The notes below the pieces were generated by a model that did no database searches, was not told where the DNA came from, and saw nothing but the letters and a program-made list of their open reading frames with translations. The position numbers and the translations under genes are program-made. DNA of 64,000 bases from Saccharicrinis sp. (lineage in GTDB: Bacteria > Bacteroidota > Bacteroidia > Bacteroidales > Marinilabiliaceae). Shown here piece after piece: positions 40,801-51,264 of this stretch. The stretch is taken from positions 1-64,000 of the forward strand of contig JAGXIO010000195.1 of assembly GCA_024635555.1 (NCBI GenBank), written 5' to 3'. The number at the start of each line of letters is the position of its first letter. Positions within the stretch are counted from its first letter, which is position 1.

Positions 40801-43800
40801 ATGAAATTTACCGAAGCCAAATTAGAACAAGTATTTATTGAACTATTACAAGAAGAAGGTTATGCCTATTTATCAGGTGATAAGATAGACAGAGCAGAGG
40901 AAGAGGTTTTAATTACAGAAGATTTAAAAGCCTTTCTGCAATATCAATATAATGCTGAAGGAATCACAGAATCGGAGATTGATTCCATTATCCGTGATTT
41001 AGAAAAACTACCGGCTTCGGATATCTACGAGACCAATAAAACTATCATGAAATGGATTTCCGATGGTTTCCTTCTAAAACGTGAAGATCATACTCAGAAA
41101 GACATCTATATTCAATTATTTGATTACACCTCCATCAATAAAAGCGAAGAAGCCTCGCCCCTACTATCGGGAGATGTGGCTATGGCTGCCGAACTACAAA
41201 CAAAATACAAAAAGAGCAACAATATTTTTAAGATTGTCACTCAACTTAAAATTCAAGGATATGAAAAACGAATTCCTGATGCCATATTATATATTAACGG
41301 AATTCCCTTAGTTGTTTTTGAGTTTAAAAGTGCTATTCGAGAAAACACCACCATTCACGATGCGTATGTTCAAATAATTACACGATACAAAAGAGATATA
41401 CCCGAACTCTTTAAATACAACGTATTTTGTGTGATTAGTGATGGTGTAAACAACAAGGCCGGATCTTTTTTTGCTCCTTATGAGTTCTTTTATGCGTGGC
41501 GATTTGTTGGCATTAATGGCAATGCTGGCAGTAATGGTGCTACTGGTAATGCTGGCATATATGGCAATACTGGCAAGGCTGTCAATGATGGTATTAACAG
41601 CATGTATTCCATGGTTCACGGTATGTTCAATAAAACAGACCTGTTGAATATTGTGCGAAACTTTATATATGTGCCAGACACTTCCCGAAAAGAGGAAAAG
41701 ATTGTTTGTCGTTATCCACAATATTATGCAGCTACCAAGCTATATGAAAATATAAAAAAAGAAATGCGCCCCTTAGGTTCCGGTAAAGGAGGTACTTACT
41801 TTGGAGCTACCGGTTGTGGCAAGAGCTATACCATGCTTTTCCTGACTCGGTTATTAATGAAAAGTAAGTTCTTCTCCAGTCCTACAATTGTATTAATTAC
41901 CGACCGAACTGATTTAGATGACCAATTATCATCTCAATTTACCAATGCCAAAGGGTATATAGGTGATAATACAGTTGTGAGCGTAGAAAGTCGGGCTGAT
42001 TTAAGAGAAAAGCTTCAGGGCAGAAATAGCGGTGGGGTCTTTCTTACAACCATCCATAAATTCACCGAAGATATTGAATTGCTTACAGAGCGAAGCAATG
42101 TCATTTGCATTTCGGATGAAGCACACCGAAGCCAGACTAACCTGAATCAGAAAATCAAGATTACTGATAAAGGACTAAAAAAGACTTATGGTTTTGCAAA
42201 GTATTTGCACGATTCCTTACCCAACGCAACCTATGTCGGTTTTACAGGAACTCCGGTTGATGCAACCTTGGATGTGTTTGGAGGAGTAGTTGATGCCTAT
42301 ACCATGACAGAATCGGTAGAGGATGAAATTACAGTTCGTTTAGTTTATGAAGGTCGCGCTGCTAAAATACTATTGGACAATAGAAAACTCCAAGAGATTG
42401 AAGATTATTACTCCAAATGTGCTGAGGATGGAGCAAATGAGCACCAAATAGAAGAGAGCAAAAAGGCTACTTCAAATATGAATTCCATTATTGGTGATCC
42501 TGACCGATTAAAAGCCCTGGCCGAAGATTTCGTTGTCCATTACGAAAAACGTGTTGAAGAAGGCGCAACGGTAAAAGGCAAAGCCATGTTTGTTTGTAGC
42601 AGTCGTGCCATTGCATTTGCCTTATATCAAAACATAATCGACCTTCGACCGGAATGGAACGAGATATTAACACATGCTCAAGGGGAAGAACTAACGGATA
42701 GGGAGCAAAAAGAAATAAAACCGATTGAGCGAGTTAAAAATATTATGACCCGGGGCAAGGATGATGAAAAAGACTTATACAATTTGTTGGGTTCCAAAGA
42801 GTATCGTAAAGAACTCGACCGGCAATTTAAAAATCCAAAATCCAACTTTAAAATTGCCATGGTCGTTGATATGTGGCTTACAGGTTTTGATGTTCCGTTT
42901 CTGGATACTATCTATATTGATAAACCGATTCAGCGTCACAATCTAATCCAGACCATTTCACGAGTAAACCGTAAATTTAAAGGCAAAGAAAAAGGTTTGG
43001 TAGTTGATTACATTGGAATCAAAAAGCAAATGAACCTGGCTCTGGCGCATTACAATAAAAAGGATAGTGAGAACTTCGAAGATATTGAACAATCCATTGT
43101 TGTGGTGAAAGATCATTTAGATTTGCTCGCGAAGATTTTCCATCAATTCGATACTACCCAATACTTTAATGGAACAGGCATTGAACAACTAAACACCTTG
43201 AATATGGCAGCTGAGTATGCCCAGGCTACACAAGAGCTTGAAAAGCGATTTATGTACCTGGTAAAACGCTTAAAAGCAGCATTTGATATTTGTTCCGGCA
43301 GCGAAGCCTTTTCAGAAAAAGAGAAAGACTTTATTCATTTCTATATCGCAGTTCGTTCCATTGTTTTTAAACTCACTAAAGGCGAAGCTCCTGATATTGA
43401 TCAGATGAATGCTAAAGTCCGGGAAATGATAAAAGATGCCATTGAAAGCGATGGTGTTGAAGAAATCTTTAAGTTGGGCGATGATAATAATTCAGAAGTG
43501 GATATTTTTAGTGATGATTACCTGGAAAAACTGAGTAAAATAAAACTGCCCAACACCAAGATCAAGTTACTTCAGAAACTATTGGCTAAAGCCATTGAAG
43601 ATTTTAAAAAGATTAATAAAATACAAGGAGTTAACTTCTCAAAGAAAATGCAAGTCTTGGTGGAACGCTACAATGAACGTAAAGAATCGGATGTCCTTCA
43701 AAGTGAGGTTCTGGAAGATTTTACGGATGAAATTATCGACTTATACCATGCCCTCCGAAAAGAAAAAGAATCCTATGGCGAACTGGGAATAGACTTCGAA

Positions 43801-44076
43801 GAAAAGGCATTTTACGACATTCTTAAGGCATTAGCTGTTAAGTATGATTTCAAATATCCAGAAGACAAACTATTACTACTCGCCAAAGAAGTTAAGACAG
43901 TAGTGGATGACAAAGCCAAATATACCGACTGGAGTAAACGTGATGATATCAAAGCAGAACTAAAAGTGGACCTAATCATCCTCCTTGCCGAAAATGACTA
44001 TCCTCCTGTAGATCGCGATGAAGTGTACAAAGAGATATTTGAACAGGCCGAGAATTTTAAGAAGAATCAGAGATAA
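40801..44076 (+). CDS. hsdR: Type I restriction-modification system endonuclease/translocase subunit
   Basis: 1091 residues. The PD-(D/E)xK nuclease core is I-P-D-A-I-L-Y-I-N-G-I-P-L-V-V-F-E-F-K (about 158-176). The SF2 helicase has Walker A G-A-T-G-C-G-K-S (about 334-341), I-S-D-E-A-H-R-S-Q (about 436-444) and V-G-F-T-G-T-P. The C-terminal helical part binds HsdM. Between nuclease and helicase, about residues 236-267 are a Gly/Asn/Ala-rich insertion coded by a degenerate repeat (41509-41600). All catalytic motifs are kept, so the enzyme is probably active. It follows the NACHT gene by 6 bases. Confidence 0.95.
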   Translation: MKFTEAKLEQVFIELLQEEGYAYLSGDKIDRAEEEVLITEDLKAFLQYQYNAEGITESEIDSIIRDLEKLPASDIYETNKTIMKWISDGFLLKREDHTQKDIYIQLFDYTSINKSEEASPLLSGDVAMAAELQTKYKKSNNIFKIVTQLKIQGYEKRIPDAILYINGIPLVVFEFKSAIRENTTIHDAYVQIITRYKRDIPELFKYNVFCVISDGVNNKAGSFFAPYEFFYAWRFVGINGNAGSNGATGNAGIYGNTGKAVNDGINSMYSMVHGMFNKTDLLNIVRNFIYVPDTSRKEEKIVCRYPQYYAATKLYENIKKEMRPLGSGKGGTYFGATGCGKSYTMLFLTRLLMKSKFFSSPTIVLITDRTDLDDQLSSQFTNAKGYIGDNTVVSVESRADLREKLQGRNSGGVFLTTIHKFTEDIELLTERSNVICISDEAHRSQTNLNQKIKITDKGLKKTYGFAKYLHDSLPNATYVGFTGTPVDATLDVFGGVVDAYTMTESVEDEITVRLVYEGRAAKILLDNRKLQEIEDYYSKCAEDGANEHQIEESKKATSNMNSIIGDPDRLKALAEDFVVHYEKRVEEGATVKGKAMFVCSSRAIAFALYQNIIDLRPEWNEILTHAQGEELTDREQKEIKPIERVKNIMTRGKDDEKDLYNLLGSKEYRKELDRQFKNPKSNFKIAMVVDMWLTGFDVPFLDTIYIDKPIQRHNLIQTISRVNRKFKGKEKGLVVDYIGIKKQMNLALAHYNKKDSENFEDIEQSIVVVKDHLDLLAKIFHQFDTTQYFNGTGIEQLNTLNMAAEYAQATQELEKRFMYLVKRLKAAFDICSGSEAFSEKEKDFIHFYIAVRSIVFKLTKGEAPDIDQMNAKVREMIKDAIESDGVEEIFKLGDDNNSEVDIFSDDYLEKLSKIKLPNTKIKLLQKLLAKAIEDFKKINKIQGVNFSKKMQVLVERYNERKESDVLQSEVLEDFTDEIIDLYHALRKEKESYGELGIDFEEKAFYDILKALAVKYDFKYPEDKLLLLAKEVKTVVDDKAKYTDWSKRDDIKAELKVDLIILLAENDYPPVDRDEVYKEIFEQAENFKKNQR
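41509..41600 (+). repeat. Degenerate GGCAATACTGGC-type repeat inside hsdR
   Basis: In-frame run of GGNAAT/GCTGGN words that gives the peptide pattern G-N-A-G-S-N-G-A-T-G-N-A-G. It sits in the loop between the nuclease and helicase domains, where HsdR proteins normally have a short acidic stretch. Confidence 0.85.
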
Positions 44077-44094
44077 ATATTTTTTTAAAAAAAA

Positions 44095-45572
44095 ATGAGT
44101 TTAATTTCCGATTATACAGACAAATTAAATAATTCTCACAAATATGATGTTCAATATGAATATCGGGAAGAAGAGTATTGGAATGAAGTGGATATAAGAA
44201 TCAGGACTGCCTCAGATAATGGCGAAGAACCATTCTCAGATATCTATGATTTAATTTCTGTAATGAAGAAATATAGAAGTTTTAATATTCCTTGTACTTT
44301 TCACATTTGTTCCGAAATAAACCATGTTGAGGATATTGATATTCCATTAGAGTTTTTCAACTGTATTTTTGTAAGTTATTGCTCATTTACAAATATTTCT
44401 TTTAAAAAATCAGTTGCTTTTTTAGAAAAGTAATATTTACATCAGGAGTAAGCTTTCAAGAAAGTACATTCTTAGACTCATTTATAATAAAAAAATGTGT
44501 TTTTAAAGAATCTGTCATATTTTGGAAATCGATCTTTATCAAAGAGGTGACATTAGAATTAAATAACTTTGAAAAGAAAGTATCTTTTAAAAAAGTAACC
44601 TTTAATGAATTAAGCTTTAGTAGTTTGTTGTTTAAAGATCTTGCTGTATTTTCATATTCAGATTTTAACACAATTAATAGGTTTGAAAATGTATCATTTG
44701 AGGGAAAAACAGAAGGGTATCAATTAAATTTTAATTGTCCATCCAAATTATCAAATGTTCAATTTCACAAACTTGTAGATTTTAACAACTCAAATTTTAA
44801 TGAAAATATATTATTTCACCGAATAGATTTTTTAGATCGTTCTTTTTTTTCAGGTTCAATTTTTAATAAGCAAGTATCTTTTCTGCACTGTAGAGTAAAC
44901 AGCAATACGGTTATTGACTTTGAGTCGGTTACATTTAATAATTCATTAGATATTTCAAGAGCAAACTTTGCATGCGTCATAAATTTCTGGAATATTAAGC
45001 TAAAGGAAGTAAATATTATCCCTTCGGAATTTAGCCTCTATCTAAATGATGATTTAATTGAAAGTTCACAAACTATAGCTGTTATAAATAAAGAAACACT
45101 TCAGAAAATAAGGGAGTCATATCGTATAATAAAGAAATCACTTCGTGATGCAGGAAATGAAATAAATGCGCTGAAATTCAAAGGTTACGAAATGACTGTT
45201 TATGAGAAAGAACTTTCCAATGGTGAAAAGGGGAAAACTATATTGTTTTTCAGTAAATGGTCTAACAAACATGGCTTAAGCTGGGGACGGGGAGTTGTAT
45301 TTACATTGTTATTTACCGCTGTTACATTGTATATATTTATGCTTTTCGCACAAAATATGCTTGTGTGGGAATGGTCTCCAGAATCTAGAAATCAGACCCT
45401 AACAGCTTTTGTCCAATTTTTAAACATTACTAATTGGAGCTTTAAACCATGGAGTATTGATTTAAGTAATGAATATCCTTGGGGATATTTAATTTTATTA
45501 GTAGGTAGAATATTCATAGGTTATGGATATTATCAAACAATCTCTGCTTTTAGAAGATTTGGAAAGAATTAA
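44095..45572 (+). pseudogene. Pentapeptide-like repeat protein with C-terminal membrane anchor, one frameshift
   Basis: The first part (44095-44433) ends in N-C-I-F-V-S-Y-C-S-F-T-N-I-S-F-K-K-S-V-A-F. The same pattern continues without a break in the next frame from about 44421 (V-I-F-T-S-G-V-S-F-Q-E-S-T-F-L-D-S-F) to 45572. Adding one T to the six-T run at about 44418-44423 restores a single frame of about 492 codons. The middle has F-x-x-x-x/F-N-N-S-x pentapeptide-like coils, and the C-terminal part has two transmembrane segments (V-V-F-T-L-L-F-T-A-V-T-L-Y-I-F and Y-L-I-L-L-V-G-R-I-F-I-G). It could be a membrane effector. The frameshift could be real, phase-variable or an assembly error. An internal ATG at 44547 might still give a shorter protein. 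18 bases after hsdR. Confidence 0.75.
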
Positions 45573-45583
45573 AGTAAAGCTGA

Positions 45584-46216
45584 ATGGAAAATAAATTAGC
45601 TGTAAAAAAATATAAGTCAATTGTAGAACGAGGCTTTAAAAGCTTTTTAGAACTGTTTTTAGTTTGTTGTTACTGGAATGATAAAACGTTAGTTAACTCA
45701 ACGATAATTGATTTTAAAATATTTAATTTTCAGTCACGTGGAATTGAAGAATGTTTAGAAGCATTTCAGTTAACGAAAGATTCAGATGATTTTTGCGGTA
45801 AACCGATAAGCGAGTTAGATTGTGCTTTAAAAACATGGTACAAAAACAATAATTTTGAACCTTATAAGAAATGGTTTATTGAAAACTTTGTAATTTCAAA
45901 AGAAGAGTTTGTGCTATGGTATAAAAATGACAAACATGATAGGCAATGTCATTATTGTAAGATAAAAGAAAGTGAAATTGCTAGGTTAATTGAAGCAAAT
46001 AGAATTAGTACTAAACGGTTAAGTACAAGAGGAAAGTATATAGAAGTAGATCGTCTTCAAGTAAACAAAGGATATGTAAAAGATAATATAGCTTTTTGTT
46101 GTTATTGGTGTAACAATGCCAAAACAGATGAATTTACAGAAAAGGAATTTAAAACTATTGGAAAAATAATAGGTGAAACGTTTAGGATCAGATTAGCCCA
46201 AATCGATAAAGAATAA
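45584..46216 (+). CDS. HNH endonuclease-like protein
   Basis: 210 residues. The C-terminal half has the HNH zinc layout: C-H-Y-C (about 122-125), then Y-I-E-V-D-R-L with the acidic metal site, N-K-G-Y-V-K-D-N-I-A-F-C-C-Y-W-C-N-N-A-K-T-D. The two C-x2-C pairs should bind the structural zinc. The N-terminal half is unknown. It starts 11 bases after the pentapeptide-like gene and ends 3 bases before the McrB-like stub, so it belongs to the defence run. Probably a DNA nuclease, either a modified-DNA restriction enzyme or the partner of its neighbour. Confidence 0.78.
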   Translation: MENKLAVKKYKSIVERGFKSFLELFLVCCYWNDKTLVNSTIIDFKIFNFQSRGIEECLEAFQLTKDSDDFCGKPISELDCALKTWYKNNNFEPYKKWFIENFVISKEEFVLWYKNDKHDRQCHYCKIKESEIARLIEANRISTKRLSTRGKYIEVDRLQVNKGYVKDNIAFCCYWCNNAKTDEFTEKEFKTIGKIIGETFRIRLAQIDKE

Positions 46217-46219
46217 GCT

Positions 46220-46716
46220 ATGCAAAACGAATCTAACATACAAGAACAATTTCTTCAAGAATGGCCTATTGAAAGGCTTAAAAAATGCGTCTAGAGGAGT
46301 ATTCAAACCTAGATAAATCAACATCTTTTTGTTATTGGTTAGAGTCAAAAACCATTGAACTAGGCGGAATTGGAGGAGGTTCAGCCTATAAGTTTGGTAT
46401 TTACAAACGACAATGGGATAAGGATGATAAACGTGAGGCCTATTCAACAGATGGGGAATATAGCTGGGTTAAAAAATATGGGAATAGTAGAGAAACTGCA
46501 TTTGAAATGGTTAGGGAGCTGATATGCAGAGTTGCGGAATATGCCAGTGATGGAAAGTTTAAAAAGATTGATGATATCGATTTAGGAGATGCTTATAAGT
46601 GGAAGATAGCTTTTCTTTATTCTAATGAACGTTTACTTCCTATCTATAAAAAAGAGGCTTTGCAGATTGCAGCTGAATCATTGGGGATTGATAAGGAACA
46701 ATCTTTAGGTGCATAA
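46220..46716 (+). pseudogene. N-terminal stub of a McrB-like AAA protein, frameshifted and truncated
   Basis: From the ATG at 46220, Q-E-Q-F-L-Q-E-W-P-I-E-R-L-K-K runs to a stop; the same protein continues in the next frame from 46285 as M-R-L-E-E-Y-S-N-L-D-K, then F-C-Y-W-L-E-S-K-T-x-E-L-G-G-I-G-G-G and Y-K-F-G-I-Y. This is the N-terminal domain found before the GTPase of some McrB-like restriction proteins. One extra A in the A-run at 46280-46285 would rejoin the frames. The protein then ends at about residue 165 (G-I-D-K-E-Q-S-L-G-A) without any Walker motif, and no McrC follows. So it is both frameshifted and cut off. It is possible that the domain now acts alone. Confidence 0.6.
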
Positions 46717-48243: not shown

Positions 48244-48564
48244 TTTTTAAGTGTTTAGTCATGTTATATTTCAAAATACGCAGAGAGTCTGTATTCATGA
48301 TGCTCTCTAAAATGAACATATCCCAGGTTTCATTGATTTCTTTCTGTGTCACATTATCATGATGATGTTTATAAATCCAATAATCAATACTATAAGCTGT
48401 TTTGAGCAAATTCCAAGTGTATATCCGAACAATACTGACACAATCATAAGGGAAATGATAGATTCTTGTTATGTAAAAGAACAAAAGTTGTCAATAATAA
48501 GCAATGATTTATTAAATTTGTAGCTGAAATAATATTATAATTTTATGCGTCACTGACGCTTCTC

Positions 48565-48682
48565 CACAGAAAAACGACCAATTTTTAACTGAGAAGGAGA
48601 AGACAGAAAGTGAACGCACCTGATATGGGTGTGTTCCTTTCGCTTATTTAATCTTCTCGGGTGCTTGGTCGTACCTTCTGTG
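48565..48682 (+). ncRNA. Strongly structured RNA candidate (rod of nested helices)
   Basis: Four helices nest without crossing: CACAGAA (48565-48571) with TTCTGTG (48676-48682); ACGACCAA (48574-48581) with TTGGTCGT (48665-48672); GAGAAGA (48597-48603) with TCTTCTC (48652-48658); GAAAG plus GAACGCACC (48606-48620) with GGTGTGTTC plus CTTTC (48628-48641) and a short loop. One pair is G-U on the plus strand and would be C-A on the minus strand, which favours plus. It ends 70 bases before the zinc-ribbon gene, with another hairpin (48698-48735) in between. It may be a regulatory leader, a stand-alone small RNA, or a DNA hairpin element. No known family recognised. Confidence 0.55.
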
Positions 48683-48697
48683 ATTAGATATAGCAAA

Positions 48698-48735
48698 GGT
48701 TCATGCCCACCTTCATTTTTAGGGTATCGTGAACC
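48698..48735 (+). promoter_or_regulatory. Second hairpin in the leader of the zinc-ribbon gene
   Basis: GGTTCA (48698-48703) pairs with TGAACC (48730-48735), with CCC/GGG inside. It lies 17 bases before the start codon at 48753 and could control translation. Confidence 0.45.
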
Positions 48736-48752
48736 AATAAAGGAACGAGCCT

Positions 48753-49859
48753 ATGACTACTTATCCAATTGTTGAGCCAGAGATTAGTGATTACTTAAAG
48801 TGTCTCTCAAAAGAGAGCATACAGGAAGTTATTGACCTATTTCATGGGAAGGAATATAAGATTCCCCAAATCATTGAGAAGTTTGGACTTGAGAAAATTT
48901 CTGTAAATACATTTGTAAATAAACTACCCCCAGTTCATCATTATGATCTAGTTTGTCCGGAATGTCAAGTTGTTTCCTGGAAAAATCATTTAGCAAGGAA
49001 TAAAAAGTCAGATCCTTTCTGTCCACAATGTGGAGAAGTCTTAATCTATGATTTTGATCCAGAGGAACGTCAGAGACATATTGAATATCAGAAGGAAAGA
49101 GAAGTCTGGTTGCGAATGATGGATCCAGATTATTATGAATATGAAGTTGTTATTAACAGGGCAAGGTATGATACACTTACATTATTCCAAAAGGTGTTCC
49201 TTGGTTGTGCAGTTCAGGCACTTGTTGAAGATGACCTATCTACTGTTAAGGGTAAACTCTTAAAGGAATTTAAATTATTTCCAAATCAAGAGAAATTAAA
49301 TGAGGAACTAAGGGGGTTAGGTATCATTGAAGGAGTAGATTATACAGAATGCAAATACATAATTGATGTGTCTGTCACTAAAGAATTATTGGCCTGTGAA
49401 AATAAATTAGGATCTGTTTTAAAAGATCAATTCAATTTGTGGAAAGTTATTGCCATGGCCGAATCTAAAGAATATTTGATTGGTGAAATGAGTACTAATA
49501 ACTTTAGATATCATCATGACAATAAGTTTAAAGAAGTGTTTAGTAATTTAATTCAGGAACATTCAGTATCACAAACTTTCCATTTGATTAACAAATCAGT
49601 TGCTGATGCATGTAAATTATATGCACAAAGGGGCAACCGGTATTTAGCAGAAAATTCTATTATAGGATTATGTGCTCGAATGGCTGATTATTATCCTACT
49701 AGAGGTTGGCCTATTTTAAAATATGAGAGAAGACGTTTTCATCAATCGTTAATGAGTCAGTACTTTTTTAATAAGCTTCTTAAAATAGGTAAAGTTGGTT
49801 TTGACTACCCACCGTTACTAGAAATACTCATACACAATAATTTAAATAAAAACTATTAA
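48753..49859 (+). CDS. Unknown protein with a zinc ribbon
   Basis: 368 residues. Near residues 69-97 two pairs, V-C-P-E-C and F-C-P-Q-C-G-E, form a zinc ribbon with about 25 residues between them. The rest is mostly helical, with no catalytic motif that I recognise. The conserved-looking parts are E-R-E-V-W-L-R-M-M-D-P-D-Y-Y-E-Y and N-R-Y-L-A-E-N-S-I-I-G-L-C-A-R-M. It follows the structured RNA and precedes a secreted protein by 4 bases. Could be a nucleic-acid-binding regulator. Unknown otherwise. Confidence 0.6.
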   Translation: MTTYPIVEPEISDYLKCLSKESIQEVIDLFHGKEYKIPQIIEKFGLEKISVNTFVNKLPPVHHYDLVCPECQVVSWKNHLARNKKSDPFCPQCGEVLIYDFDPEERQRHIEYQKEREVWLRMMDPDYYEYEVVINRARYDTLTLFQKVFLGCAVQALVEDDLSTVKGKLLKEFKLFPNQEKLNEELRGLGIIEGVDYTECKYIIDVSVTKELLACENKLGSVLKDQFNLWKVIAMAESKEYLIGEMSTNNFRYHHDNKFKEVFSNLIQEHSVSQTFHLINKSVADACKLYAQRGNRYLAENSIIGLCARMADYYPTRGWPILKYERRRFHQSLMSQYFFNKLLKIGKVGFDYPPLLEILIHNNLNKNY

Positions 49860-49863
49860 TTCA

Positions 49864-50928
49864 ATGAAGAAACAAAAACTAACCGGAATTTTAATTGGTA
49901 CATTATTGATGTTACCAGTAATGCTTAATGCGCAAAAATTTACAAAGTCAGTAAAGCCTTTTACTGCATCAAATGGAAAAACTTTTCAAGTAGGAGATAC
50001 CATTATAATTACAAGCCCTACAGATTTTGGAAATATGTTCCATTATTATTATTTCGATAAGAAATTTACTCCACAAAGAGCGTATTATACATCAGAGGTA
50101 GTCAATGAAGGACAATTTGTAGACAATCGTTTTCGCAAGCATATTATTAGGCAATTCCGTGTTTATGAAGATGGAAAAACCATAGCAGTAACAAATAAAA
50201 CATTTGGTTATGGTGTTGACCTTAACAAGGGGTTGGAAATGGGTGAAGTAGCTAATGATAACTTAATGGAGTTGTATAATAAACCGGAAATTTTCAATAA
50301 TGAAAAAGCCTTTCTGGTAACAATGAATGAAGATATTGATAATAATGATGTCAAAGAATTTCTATATCGTTTCAATCATGATGTATATAAACAGAATTAT
50401 CAGGATGAATTCTCTTTTAATGCATTATTATCAAGCAAAAAGAAGGAATTAACAGAAAAGGCAAAGCAATATGATTTGAACAAACCGTTTTTAGCGTATA
50501 CAAAGCAAGGATTTGGTAGCTATAACTTCGATACAAACTCTTTTCCTATTGTGTGGGATGGGAACTATACAAGGTTAATGGATGATCTGACTGAATCTGC
50601 AATTAAAAAAGACATCAATAATGAAGGAATTGATTTTTCAGATATTAGGTTATACTTCGAAAATGCTGAAGAGTTTTCAAGTTTTTCTTTGCCTCAGGAA
50701 CGAGCAAAATTTTTAATAGATTATAGAAAACAACCTAGTGGTAAGGTTGATAGGTCATTGTATGTTGGAGTTCAATTTATAGTGAAAGAAATTGCAGGTG
50801 CAGATTGGATTAAAAATAAAAATTTTACAGATGGTACAGAAAAGGTTCTCATTTGTGAGATTATGCGTTTAGATATGTTTGAAGATAAAGCTTTTGAAGC
50901 CAATTATCTTTCAACTGTTAAGAAGTAA
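49864..50928 (+). CDS. Secreted/periplasmic protein of unknown function
   Basis: 354 residues with a signal peptide (K-K-Q-K-L-T-G-I-L-I-G-T-L-L-M-L-P-V-M-L-N-A, cut before Q-K-F). The mature part has G-D-T-I-I-I-T-S-P and Asp/Lys-rich stretches but no family that I know. It starts 4 bases after the zinc-ribbon gene, so the two are probably one transcript. Ends with a terminator-like hairpin at 50974. Confidence 0.6.
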   Translation: MKKQKLTGILIGTLLMLPVMLNAQKFTKSVKPFTASNGKTFQVGDTIIITSPTDFGNMFHYYYFDKKFTPQRAYYTSEVVNEGQFVDNRFRKHIIRQFRVYEDGKTIAVTNKTFGYGVDLNKGLEMGEVANDNLMELYNKPEIFNNEKAFLVTMNEDIDNNDVKEFLYRFNHDVYKQNYQDEFSFNALLSSKKKELTEKAKQYDLNKPFLAYTKQGFGSYNFDTNSFPIVWDGNYTRLMDDLTESAIKKDINNEGIDFSDIRLYFENAEEFSSFSLPQERAKFLIDYRKQPSGKVDRSLYVGVQFIVKEIAGADWIKNKNFTDGTEKVLICEIMRLDMFEDKAFEANYLSTVKK

Positions 50929-50973
50929 CTTAAATATTTATGAGGGTTTATACTCTCCACTTTTTTGGATTTC

Positions 50974-51000
50974 GGGAGGCAACGGCCTCCCATTTTAATT
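50974..51000 (+). terminator. Intrinsic terminator-like hairpin
   Basis: GGGAGGC / GCCTCCC, a 7-bp GC-rich stem with a 4-base loop (CAAC or similar), followed by ATTTTAATTT. It separates the secreted protein from the AbrB-like gene and begins 45 bases after the stop. Confidence 0.7.
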
Positions 51001-51009
51001 TATATACCT

Positions 51010-51264
51010 ATGAAAAAATATACAGTAAAGTTAGATATTTTGGAAAATGGAGATGGCGTTTTAAAGTTTCCAAATGAAGTTGTTGATAAGTTTCAATTAA
51101 AAGTCGGCGATAAGATTGAGCTGATTCCTCAAAAAGATGGAAGCATCAGGATGAAACCATTAAAGAGCAAACCTAAGCTTGACAACCTTCAGGAGGGAAT
51201 TAACGAAGAAAACCTCGATGATGAGATTGATTTTGGCAGACAGGAAGGTGCGGAGGAGTGGTGA
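51010..51264 (+). CDS. AbrB/MazE-like (SpoVT-AbrB) domain protein
   Basis: 84 residues from the ATG at 51010 (a TTG at 50965 lies inside the terminator region and is unlikely). The swapped-hairpin AbrB pattern is plain: G-D-G-V-L-K-F-P-N-E-V-V-D-K-F-Q-L-K-V-G-D-K-I-E-L. The tail is acidic. Proteins like this bind DNA as dimers and often serve as antitoxins, but no toxin gene follows. So either an orphan antitoxin or a regulator. Confidence 0.7.
   Translation: MKKYTVKLDILENGDGVLKFPNEVVDKFQLKVGDKIELIPQKDGSIRMKPLKSKPKLDNLQEGINEENLDDEIDFGRQEGAEEW

Follow-up and report, generated by a model that had tools for sequence, protein, structure and literature searches.

Transcription-attenuating leaders and riboswitches such as the T-box, the trp leader and SAM-I act through platforms of terminators and antiterminators. 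Contacts between hairpin loops are known from other RNAs. In CopA-CopT of plasmid R1, antisense hairpins with complementary loops kiss, and the pairing spreads via a four-way junction to an extended duplex. In the guanidine-II riboswitch, which has a known ligand, two hairpins meet via their loops in a gene leader. To our knowledge, few regulatory RNAs are understood in Bacteroidota, the phylum that dominates the human gut. Two papers describe the Bacteroidetes motifs Bacteroidales-1, Bacteroides-1, Bacteroides-2, Flavo-1 and GUCCY-hairpin, found by comparative genomics (Weinberg 2010, PMC2864571), and terminator-like palindromic RNAs from Bacteroidetes, e.g., HMP2_4205 (PMC8040213).

The window analyzed here is a stretch of 64,000 nucleotides from Saccharicrinis sp. 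(contig JAGXIO010000195.1, positions 1 to 64,000). A first-pass annotation had pointed to a highly structured RNA on the plus strand at 48546-48735, in front of a zinc-ribbon gene, and our folding bears this out. The minimum free energy (MFE) is -73 kcal/mol, compared to -44.2 ± 4.1 kcal/mol in 200 dinucleotide shuffles, none of which was as stable (z -7.03). The parts lie where they had been placed: in the MFE fold a GCGTC-act-GACGC hairpin occupies 48547-48559, a rod of nested helices spans 48561-48688, with its main part at 48565-48682 being the 118 bases described before, and a second hairpin lies 5' of the ATG of the zinc-ribbon gene at 48753. What had been missed is that the rod has a competitor in another conserved fold, that the RNA stretch ending at about 48720 contains a stem and U-run resembling an intrinsic terminator, and that the RNA belongs to a multi-locus family not tied to the zinc-ribbon gene. 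Sequence and modeling make it likely, in our judgment, that the RNA is a 5' leader controlling the gene behind it through transcription attenuation.

The comparison of copies rests on three alignments. A1 contains 17 close copies and served to build covariance model R1, and A3 contains 50 copies and served to build R2. A4 contains 103 copies, mostly the best-scoring ones; many weaker matches from the order, class and phylum, ten close family copies (L003, L005, L006, L009-L012 and L016-L018) and loci repeating a place stand outside it. A4 was fitted to helices A, B and F, and C and D were left unfitted. A duplex-energy test compared each copy's own arms with arms from other copies; it needs no fine alignment and covers helices E and P4 as well. 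The tests on 99 copies dropped 4 of the 103 (L067, L089, L075:4648 and L092:2780). For A and B jointly the duplex energies give z -22 (99 copies), where all duplex z values rest on random re-matching among related sequences and, because some windows overlap, are not independent of each other. The features of the RNA, with these measures, are the following.

48513..48520 (+): putative promoter element TAnnTTTG (TAAATTTG), 26 nt 5' of the first conserved base of the RNA, read from the sequence; we take this motif to be the Bacteroidota -7 element
48547..48720 (+): structured leader RNA with U-rich tail; covariance-model matches of 184.6 bits (R1) and 165 bits (R2); model positions 1-164 correspond to 48547-48712
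48547..48554 (+): 5' arm of helix A, partner A' at 48609-48617; 100% of cells paired in A1, with no two-sided changes; z -10 for cognate against non-cognate arms (99 copies)
48558..48564 (+): 5' arm of helix B, partner B' at 48597-48603; 95% of cells paired and two-sided changes in 7 of 7 pairs (103 copies); z -17.4 for cognate against non-cognate arms (99 copies)
48566..48570 (+): 5' arm of helix C, part of the rod, partner C' at 48677-48681; z -34, with 91 of 99 copies in the best 5%
48574..48581 (+): 5' arm of helix or loop D, partner D' at 48665-48672; z -18, with 97% of cells paired in the 6-pair part; flanked by AAAA and UUUU, both conserved
48589..48597 (+): 5' arm of helix E, part of the rod, partner E' at 48652-48660; from the MFE fold, z -29, with 81 of 99 copies in the best 5%
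48597..48603 (+): B', partner of B in the terminator state (z -17.4) or of distal F in the rod state (z -12.7)
48609..48617 (+): A', partner of A in the terminator state (z -10) or of the foot of F in P4, the antiterminator (z -13)
48606..48641 (+): P4, predicted antiterminator hairpin capping the rod; from the MFE fold, z -13
48626..48653 (+): F, 5' strand of the terminator stem; z -19 for the distal part and -7 for the foot, and covariation in the alignment
48660..48675 (+): mini-stem GGUGC-[UUGGUC]-GUACC with D' in its loop; z -12
48682..48709 (+): F', 3' strand of the terminator stem; covariation in the alignment
48712..48720 (+): U-rich tract (TTCATTTTT) 3' of the terminator stem; T-run counts over the copies
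48698..48735 (+): second hairpin, F' with a downstream strand; from the MFE fold

The leader RNA has two mutually exclusive folds, rod and terminator, with covariation in each (99 to 103 copies). RNAalifold on A1 returned two hairpins, A/A' with B/B' and F/F', instead of the rod, which is composed of C/C', D/D', E/E' and P4. In A1, 97.6% of the pairs in helices A, B, C, D and F are standard compared to 35-46% when the arms are slid. Of the five covariation measures, three exceed every one of the 500 shuffles, and the other two have no clear excess (14/500 and 256/500). In A4, across the same five helices 90.1% of 5,033 cells are paired, two-sided changes amount to 1,089 cells versus 335 ± 18 after shuffling and 83-298 when slid, and five of five measures beat all shuffles. 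The first-pass annotation had held that an RNA without covariation among homologs would be doubtful; two-sided changes occur in 50 of the 52 modeled pairs. Helix C has 72% of its cells paired in A4, an alignment made without fitting to C, and D/D' shows two-sided changes in 5 of its 6 pairs (103 copies). The AAAA/UUUU mini-stem around D has no covariation signal (z -0.7). All five pairs of the D' mini-stem are possible in 94 of 99 copies, taking the best of nine registers. Pairings that exchange strands between the two folds covary too (B'/F distal, z -12.7; B/F' distal, z -5.1), and four control pairings from the same sequences give z values of -0.9, 0.0, 0.7 and 1.9. An attenuator requires a conserved antiterminator that excludes the terminator, and P4 together with B'/F has this property; with F' kept free, at least half of the 5' strand of the F foot is paired upstream in all 99 copies.

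The RNA is widespread. With R1, matches occur in 18 of 71 genomes from the window's family and in 54 of 295 from the order (E ≤ 0.001). With R2, they occur in 83 of 395 genomes from the class (E ≤ 1e-4) and in 21 of 296 from the phylum, where 9 carriers lie outside the class and a single genome has up to 7 matches. Carriers include Saccharicrinis aurantiacus (L070) and, with weaker matches, plasmid records of Parabacteroides distasonis and Phocaeicola massiliensis (52.8 and 41.5 bits). Judging from these carriers, the order, class and phylum are presumably Bacteroidales, Bacteroidia and Bacteroidota. The RNA of the window has no DNA match in the plasmid and phage collections; another copy, used as a query on the plasmid collection, had two partial DNA matches there. 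Second copies, decayed or complete, lie about 100 nt to 2 kb from the first at L092:2780-2918, L090:2371-2450 and L075.

Could such a scattered family be a mobile DNA element or recombination site (a MITE, an attC-like site or a REP) whose inverted arms act as DNA? The first-pass annotation had named MITE ends at many unrelated sites as the outcome that would count against an RNA. Many unrelated sites were indeed found, with several copies per genome, some of them near contig ends, and the RNA also occurs on phage and provirus contigs in IMG/VR. However, the copies are diverged and keep one orientation to the gene, the promoter motif and terminator are conserved, and the window's own genome has a single copy. 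Moreover, the 52 modeled pairs contain 561 G-U cells against 87 A-C cells (103 copies), an excess which marks both the plus strand, as first proposed, and selection at the level of RNA. Finally, the outer flanks of copies from the same genome are near background (0.74-0.75 versus 0.71-0.72 when shuffled, by a lenient measure), compared to 0.80 versus 0.73 for the promoter stretch at -60..-1 and 0.81 versus 0.71 for the RNA by the same lenient measure. We set the MITE aside on the G-U asymmetry, the single copy and the flanks, and regard a mobile element of any such kind as very improbable.

The surroundings of the copies fit the leader reading. A T-run of at least 5 stands at the 3' end of the RNA in 79 of 103 copies (24 are without it) compared to 8 of 102 further downstream; together with the covariation of F/F', this matches the intrinsic terminator before the gene that an attenuator requires. 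TAnnTTTG occurs in the -100..-1 stretch of 65 of 99 copies (34 are without it), versus 10 of 99 in -200..-101 and 8 of 99 for the antisense strand. Where a start codon follows within 90 nt, 42 of 57 copies have the motif 5' of the RNA, and 1 of 58 has it between the RNA and the gene; as far as the motif alone tells, this is the promoter placement that an attenuator requires. Because it is found 5' of the RNA and almost never before the gene, the gene is probably read through the RNA. Counting only open reading frames (ORFs) of at least 100 amino acids within 700 nt, the next ORF is codirectional in 87 of 93 copies, at a median distance of 53 nt (binomial 1.7e-19), and antisense in 6; 10 of the 103 copies have no ORF within 700 nt, partly through contig ends. 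The upstream ORF is codirectional in 54 of 83 copies and antisense in 29. In L093, L095, L096 and L097 (genomes G211 and G289), the ATG of a protein of 66-75 amino acids, which by eye resembles a helix-turn-helix regulator, lies 2-5 nt past the U-run.

These counts also bear on two other readings. The terminator-like stem and U-run at the end of the RNA could belong to the 3' terminator region of the upstream gene, but that gene is antisense in more than a third of the copies counted and promoter motifs stand directly 5' of the RNA; we rejected this reading on the orientation of the neighboring genes and consider it the least probable of all. A free-standing small RNA that acts in trans, for instance via the D/D' loops or a bound protein, with the gene behind it being incidental, is more probable than this and still unlikely. 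Such an RNA would have its own promoter and terminator, as the motif and the stem suggest; the D loop is alike in many unrelated copies, often, not always, among copies of one genome, and some copies have no close gene. Against it stand the near-constant orientation and short distance of the next gene, with the upstream gene far less constant, and the single case of a promoter motif between RNA and gene. A terminated leader could additionally act in trans. Our preferred reading, attenuation of the gene behind the RNA, is the one for which the first-pass annotation's suggestion of a new cis-regulator had left room, and it gains from the covariation, the promoter motif, the terminator and the codirectional gene, with no match in Rfam.

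A further hint at a leader position comes from the DUF805 RNA (Rfam RF03081, cis-regulatory, 68 nt). It lies 3' of the leader RNA on the same strand, at a distance of 27-45 nt, at three loci from two genomes, so that two leader elements stand in tandem (Rfam scan).

L087:3090-3158 (-): DUF805 RNA, between the leader RNA and a codirectional gene
L089:3472-3540 (+): DUF805 RNA; the contig ends soon after
L131:1701-1767 (+): DUF805 RNA, between the leader RNA and a codirectional gene

The DUF805 RNA is thus placed much as the leader RNA is; the literature searched gave no function for it. From the sequence, the whole anatomy (promoter motif, U-run, codirectional gene and tandem with the DUF805 RNA) looks like that of a leader with a conditional terminator.

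In the window the leader is followed by two genes.

48753..49859 (+): 368-amino-acid protein with a CxxC...CxxC zinc-ribbon-like motif, the first gene behind the leader (ORF, domain scan)
49864..50928 (+): DUF4852 protein, exported-looking, 4 nt behind the zinc-ribbon gene and probably on the same transcript

A gene resembling the DUF4852 gene follows in L004, L010, L017 and L019 (by eye). Cysteines 68, 71, 90 and 93 are invariant in the 14 aligned relatives of the 368-amino-acid protein, the window's included. The protein has no Pfam match above the curated cutoff or at E ≤ 0.001 and none in NCBIfam or PADLOC, and its predicted fold (pLDDT 88, 14 sequences) has no PDB match at E ≤ 0.001. It or its relatives occur at 18 places in 15 of the 198 genomes searched, the window's own among them; searches of IMG/VR with 6 peptide patterns and of the phage collection gave none, and 3 weak relatives are encoded in plasmids. 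Behind the two-gene unit, at 50965-51264 (+), lies the gene of a small protein with a weak AbrB/MazE-like match below the curated cutoff, with a counterpart in L015 (by eye).

The first-pass annotation had suggested that the RNA is a small RNA bound by the zinc-ribbon protein or half of a two-component RNA-protein element, and had asked whether it always precedes homologs of this protein. Within the window's family this nearly holds: the RNA stands directly 5' of the protein gene at 17 of 18 places, the window included, and the exception, L014, is a broken gene fragment. It does not extend to H1 and H3, two of the three distant relatives in Bacillota plasmids: in the 1.5 kb around them, RNA matches do not improve on E 0.3. 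Outside the family, most copies of the RNA precede genes unrelated to the zinc-ribbon gene. An RNA that binds the protein encoded behind it, in a toxin-antitoxin-like pair or for autoregulation, fits the arrangement within the family but neither the unrelated genes across the phylum nor the relatives in Bacillota. On the gene contexts of the other copies we rejected an RNA partner specific to the zinc-ribbon protein, and we give the two-component element hardly any credence.

The genes behind the other copies are diverse. We scanned 82 of the 87 codirectional downstream genes, leaving out four relatives of the zinc-ribbon gene and one repeat. Their products, the window's included, match 53 Pfam families, the commonest being the response-regulator domain with 5, and no shared function or pathway is apparent among the best 25 of these families. 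By a crude rule, 45 of the 82 downstream proteins look exported compared to 17 of 82 upstream proteins, and DNA methyltransferases or restriction proteins make up a minority. On IMG/VR contigs the RNA precedes a restriction-like gene behind a lysis module (L149; gene names by eye) and, in L148 and L150, an exported protein and a DUF262-like gene (by eye).

The upstream genes, of which 82 of 83 were scanned with one repeat left out, are diverse as well (Metallophos 5, PDDEXK_2 4 and PIN 3 of 82, among the best 25 of 136 families). PDDEXK_2/Rpn-like genes lie 5' of four copies and PIN toxin-like genes 5' of three (loci L077, L075, L078, L079 and L081), and a DUF6934 gene lies at equal distance 5' of both L077 copies. 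These companions recur as if the upstream gene and the RNA were reused with other genes behind. In the window, a remnant of a metallophosphoesterase gene is present at 48267-48443 (-), of which only residues 2-18 and 207-253 are matched (tblastn); of the 17 other loci compared by eye, 11 have a divergent metallophosphoesterase gene 5' of the RNA, and so do L040 and L047. Further upstream lies a stretch resembling a defense island (40801-46716).

40801-44076: type I restriction subunit R
45584-46216: weak HNH protein
46285-46716: PD-T4-1-like protein, partial

How might the leader choose between its two folds? Zero or one base separates B from C, E from B', F from E' and C' from F', and with arms this close B/B', C/C', E/E' and F/F' would meet as a four-way junction. 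D lies between AAAA and UUUU, D' is in the mini-stem's loop, and the two loops are complementary. This anatomy suggests that the loops kiss at D/D', that pairing spreads into C and E, and that B/B' and F/F' are then exchanged for B/F' and B'/F plus P4. In the mechanism we propose, transcription would begin at the promoter just 5' of the RNA, and A/A' with B/B' would be the first hairpin to form. Once the 3' half is made, the D' loop could kiss the D loop of the first hairpin, which would start the exchange, and pairing would spread via C/C' and E/E' through the four-way junction until a single long rod with P4 at its tip is formed. In this state A' and B' would hold F, F' would be free and RNA polymerase would continue into the gene. 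Should the first hairpin persist, F and F' would pair into an intrinsic terminator, and polymerase would stop at the U-run before the gene. We hypothesize that a cell-wide signal, which may be a metabolite, a protein or an RNA, sets the balance between terminator and rod. The computation itself provides the folds with their covariation, the promoter motif, the terminator features, the position and orientation of the gene and the distribution of the family.

Energies agree with parts of this order. In a nested energy model of partial folding, B/B' is probable in 90 of 99 copies once A' is made, and the rod (C and D) in 93 of 99 once C' is made and F' is still absent. For the finished RNA, the same kind of model puts the rod below the terminator by a mean of 6.8 kcal/mol, with the terminator being the lower of the two in only 18 of 99 copies and having a probability above 0.5 in only 7 of 99. 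Since nested energies favor the rod, the model alone predicts read-through and does not settle the direction of control. Two earlier readings were set aside: that the alternative helices are sterically exclusive, and then that they form a single four-way junction. The exchange model was kept because it fits both the nested energies and the covariation of B'/F.

The RNA was found in about a fifth of the genomes of the class, at up to seven places per genome, before exported, DNA methyltransferase and phage-borne genes, which implies a common signal gating variable genes. We advance only tentatively the broader idea of a leader class spread through the Bacteroidota, in which intramolecular loop kissing and four-way helix exchange would choose between terminator and read-through, and which could serve as a portable expression gate for surface-protein, DNA-modification and phage-borne genes under one shared signal. 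With base-by-base maps of the competing folds, direct tests of the switch and its signal become feasible.

The family appears to be large and undescribed in Bacteroidota. As the first-pass annotation had surmised, it matches no known family: in Rfam 15 none reaches its gathering score anywhere in the window, and in 100 related loci (8 of them repeats) there is no match on the RNA, the matches there being tRNAs and the DUF805 RNA beside it. At loose thresholds the matches are far below gathering score, and one of them overlaps the RNA (SNORD36, E 2.9; 48400-48800). We found no description of the RNA in the literature, including the consulted portions of PMC8040213, PMC2864571, PMC7366714, PMC2965389 and PMC11109978; those of PMC2965389 contain nothing on Bacteroidetes, and in those of PMC11109978 the phylum's names are absent. 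The core sequences used as a literature query returned no paper. The RNA is possibly listed under a number in a supplementary list of candidate RNAs, such as that of PMC8040213.

Attenuators as such are known, and what would be new here is a phylum-wide one with a helix-exchange design and no visible pathway. The motifs of Weinberg 2010 (PMC2864571) share with the leader RNA their phylum and their discovery by comparative genomics; those with an Rfam number have no match on it, and Bacteroides-2 and GUCCY-hairpin, which have no Rfam number in the table of that paper, fall outside the Rfam comparison. The DUF805 RNA occupies the same kind of place as the leader RNA and is a separate 68-nt element beside it, without overlap. 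Like attenuators and riboswitches, the leader has a promoter, a structured leader, an exclusive antiterminator and terminator with a U-run, and a gene directly behind. Like second-messenger riboswitches, it places one type of leader before many kinds of genes. Unlike the T-box, the trp leader and SAM-I, it is an RNA without an Rfam match that combines two competing folds with loop-loop complementarity, and no pathway is seen to unite the genes behind it, so that no ligand is obvious. The guanidine-II riboswitch is far smaller and unrelated in sequence. As in CopA-CopT, the leader RNA has two hairpins with complementary loops, D/D' being 97% paired and the D' mini-stem covarying (z -12). In contrast to CopA-CopT, both hairpins are part of one predicted transcript, and the outcome of their meeting would be antitermination.
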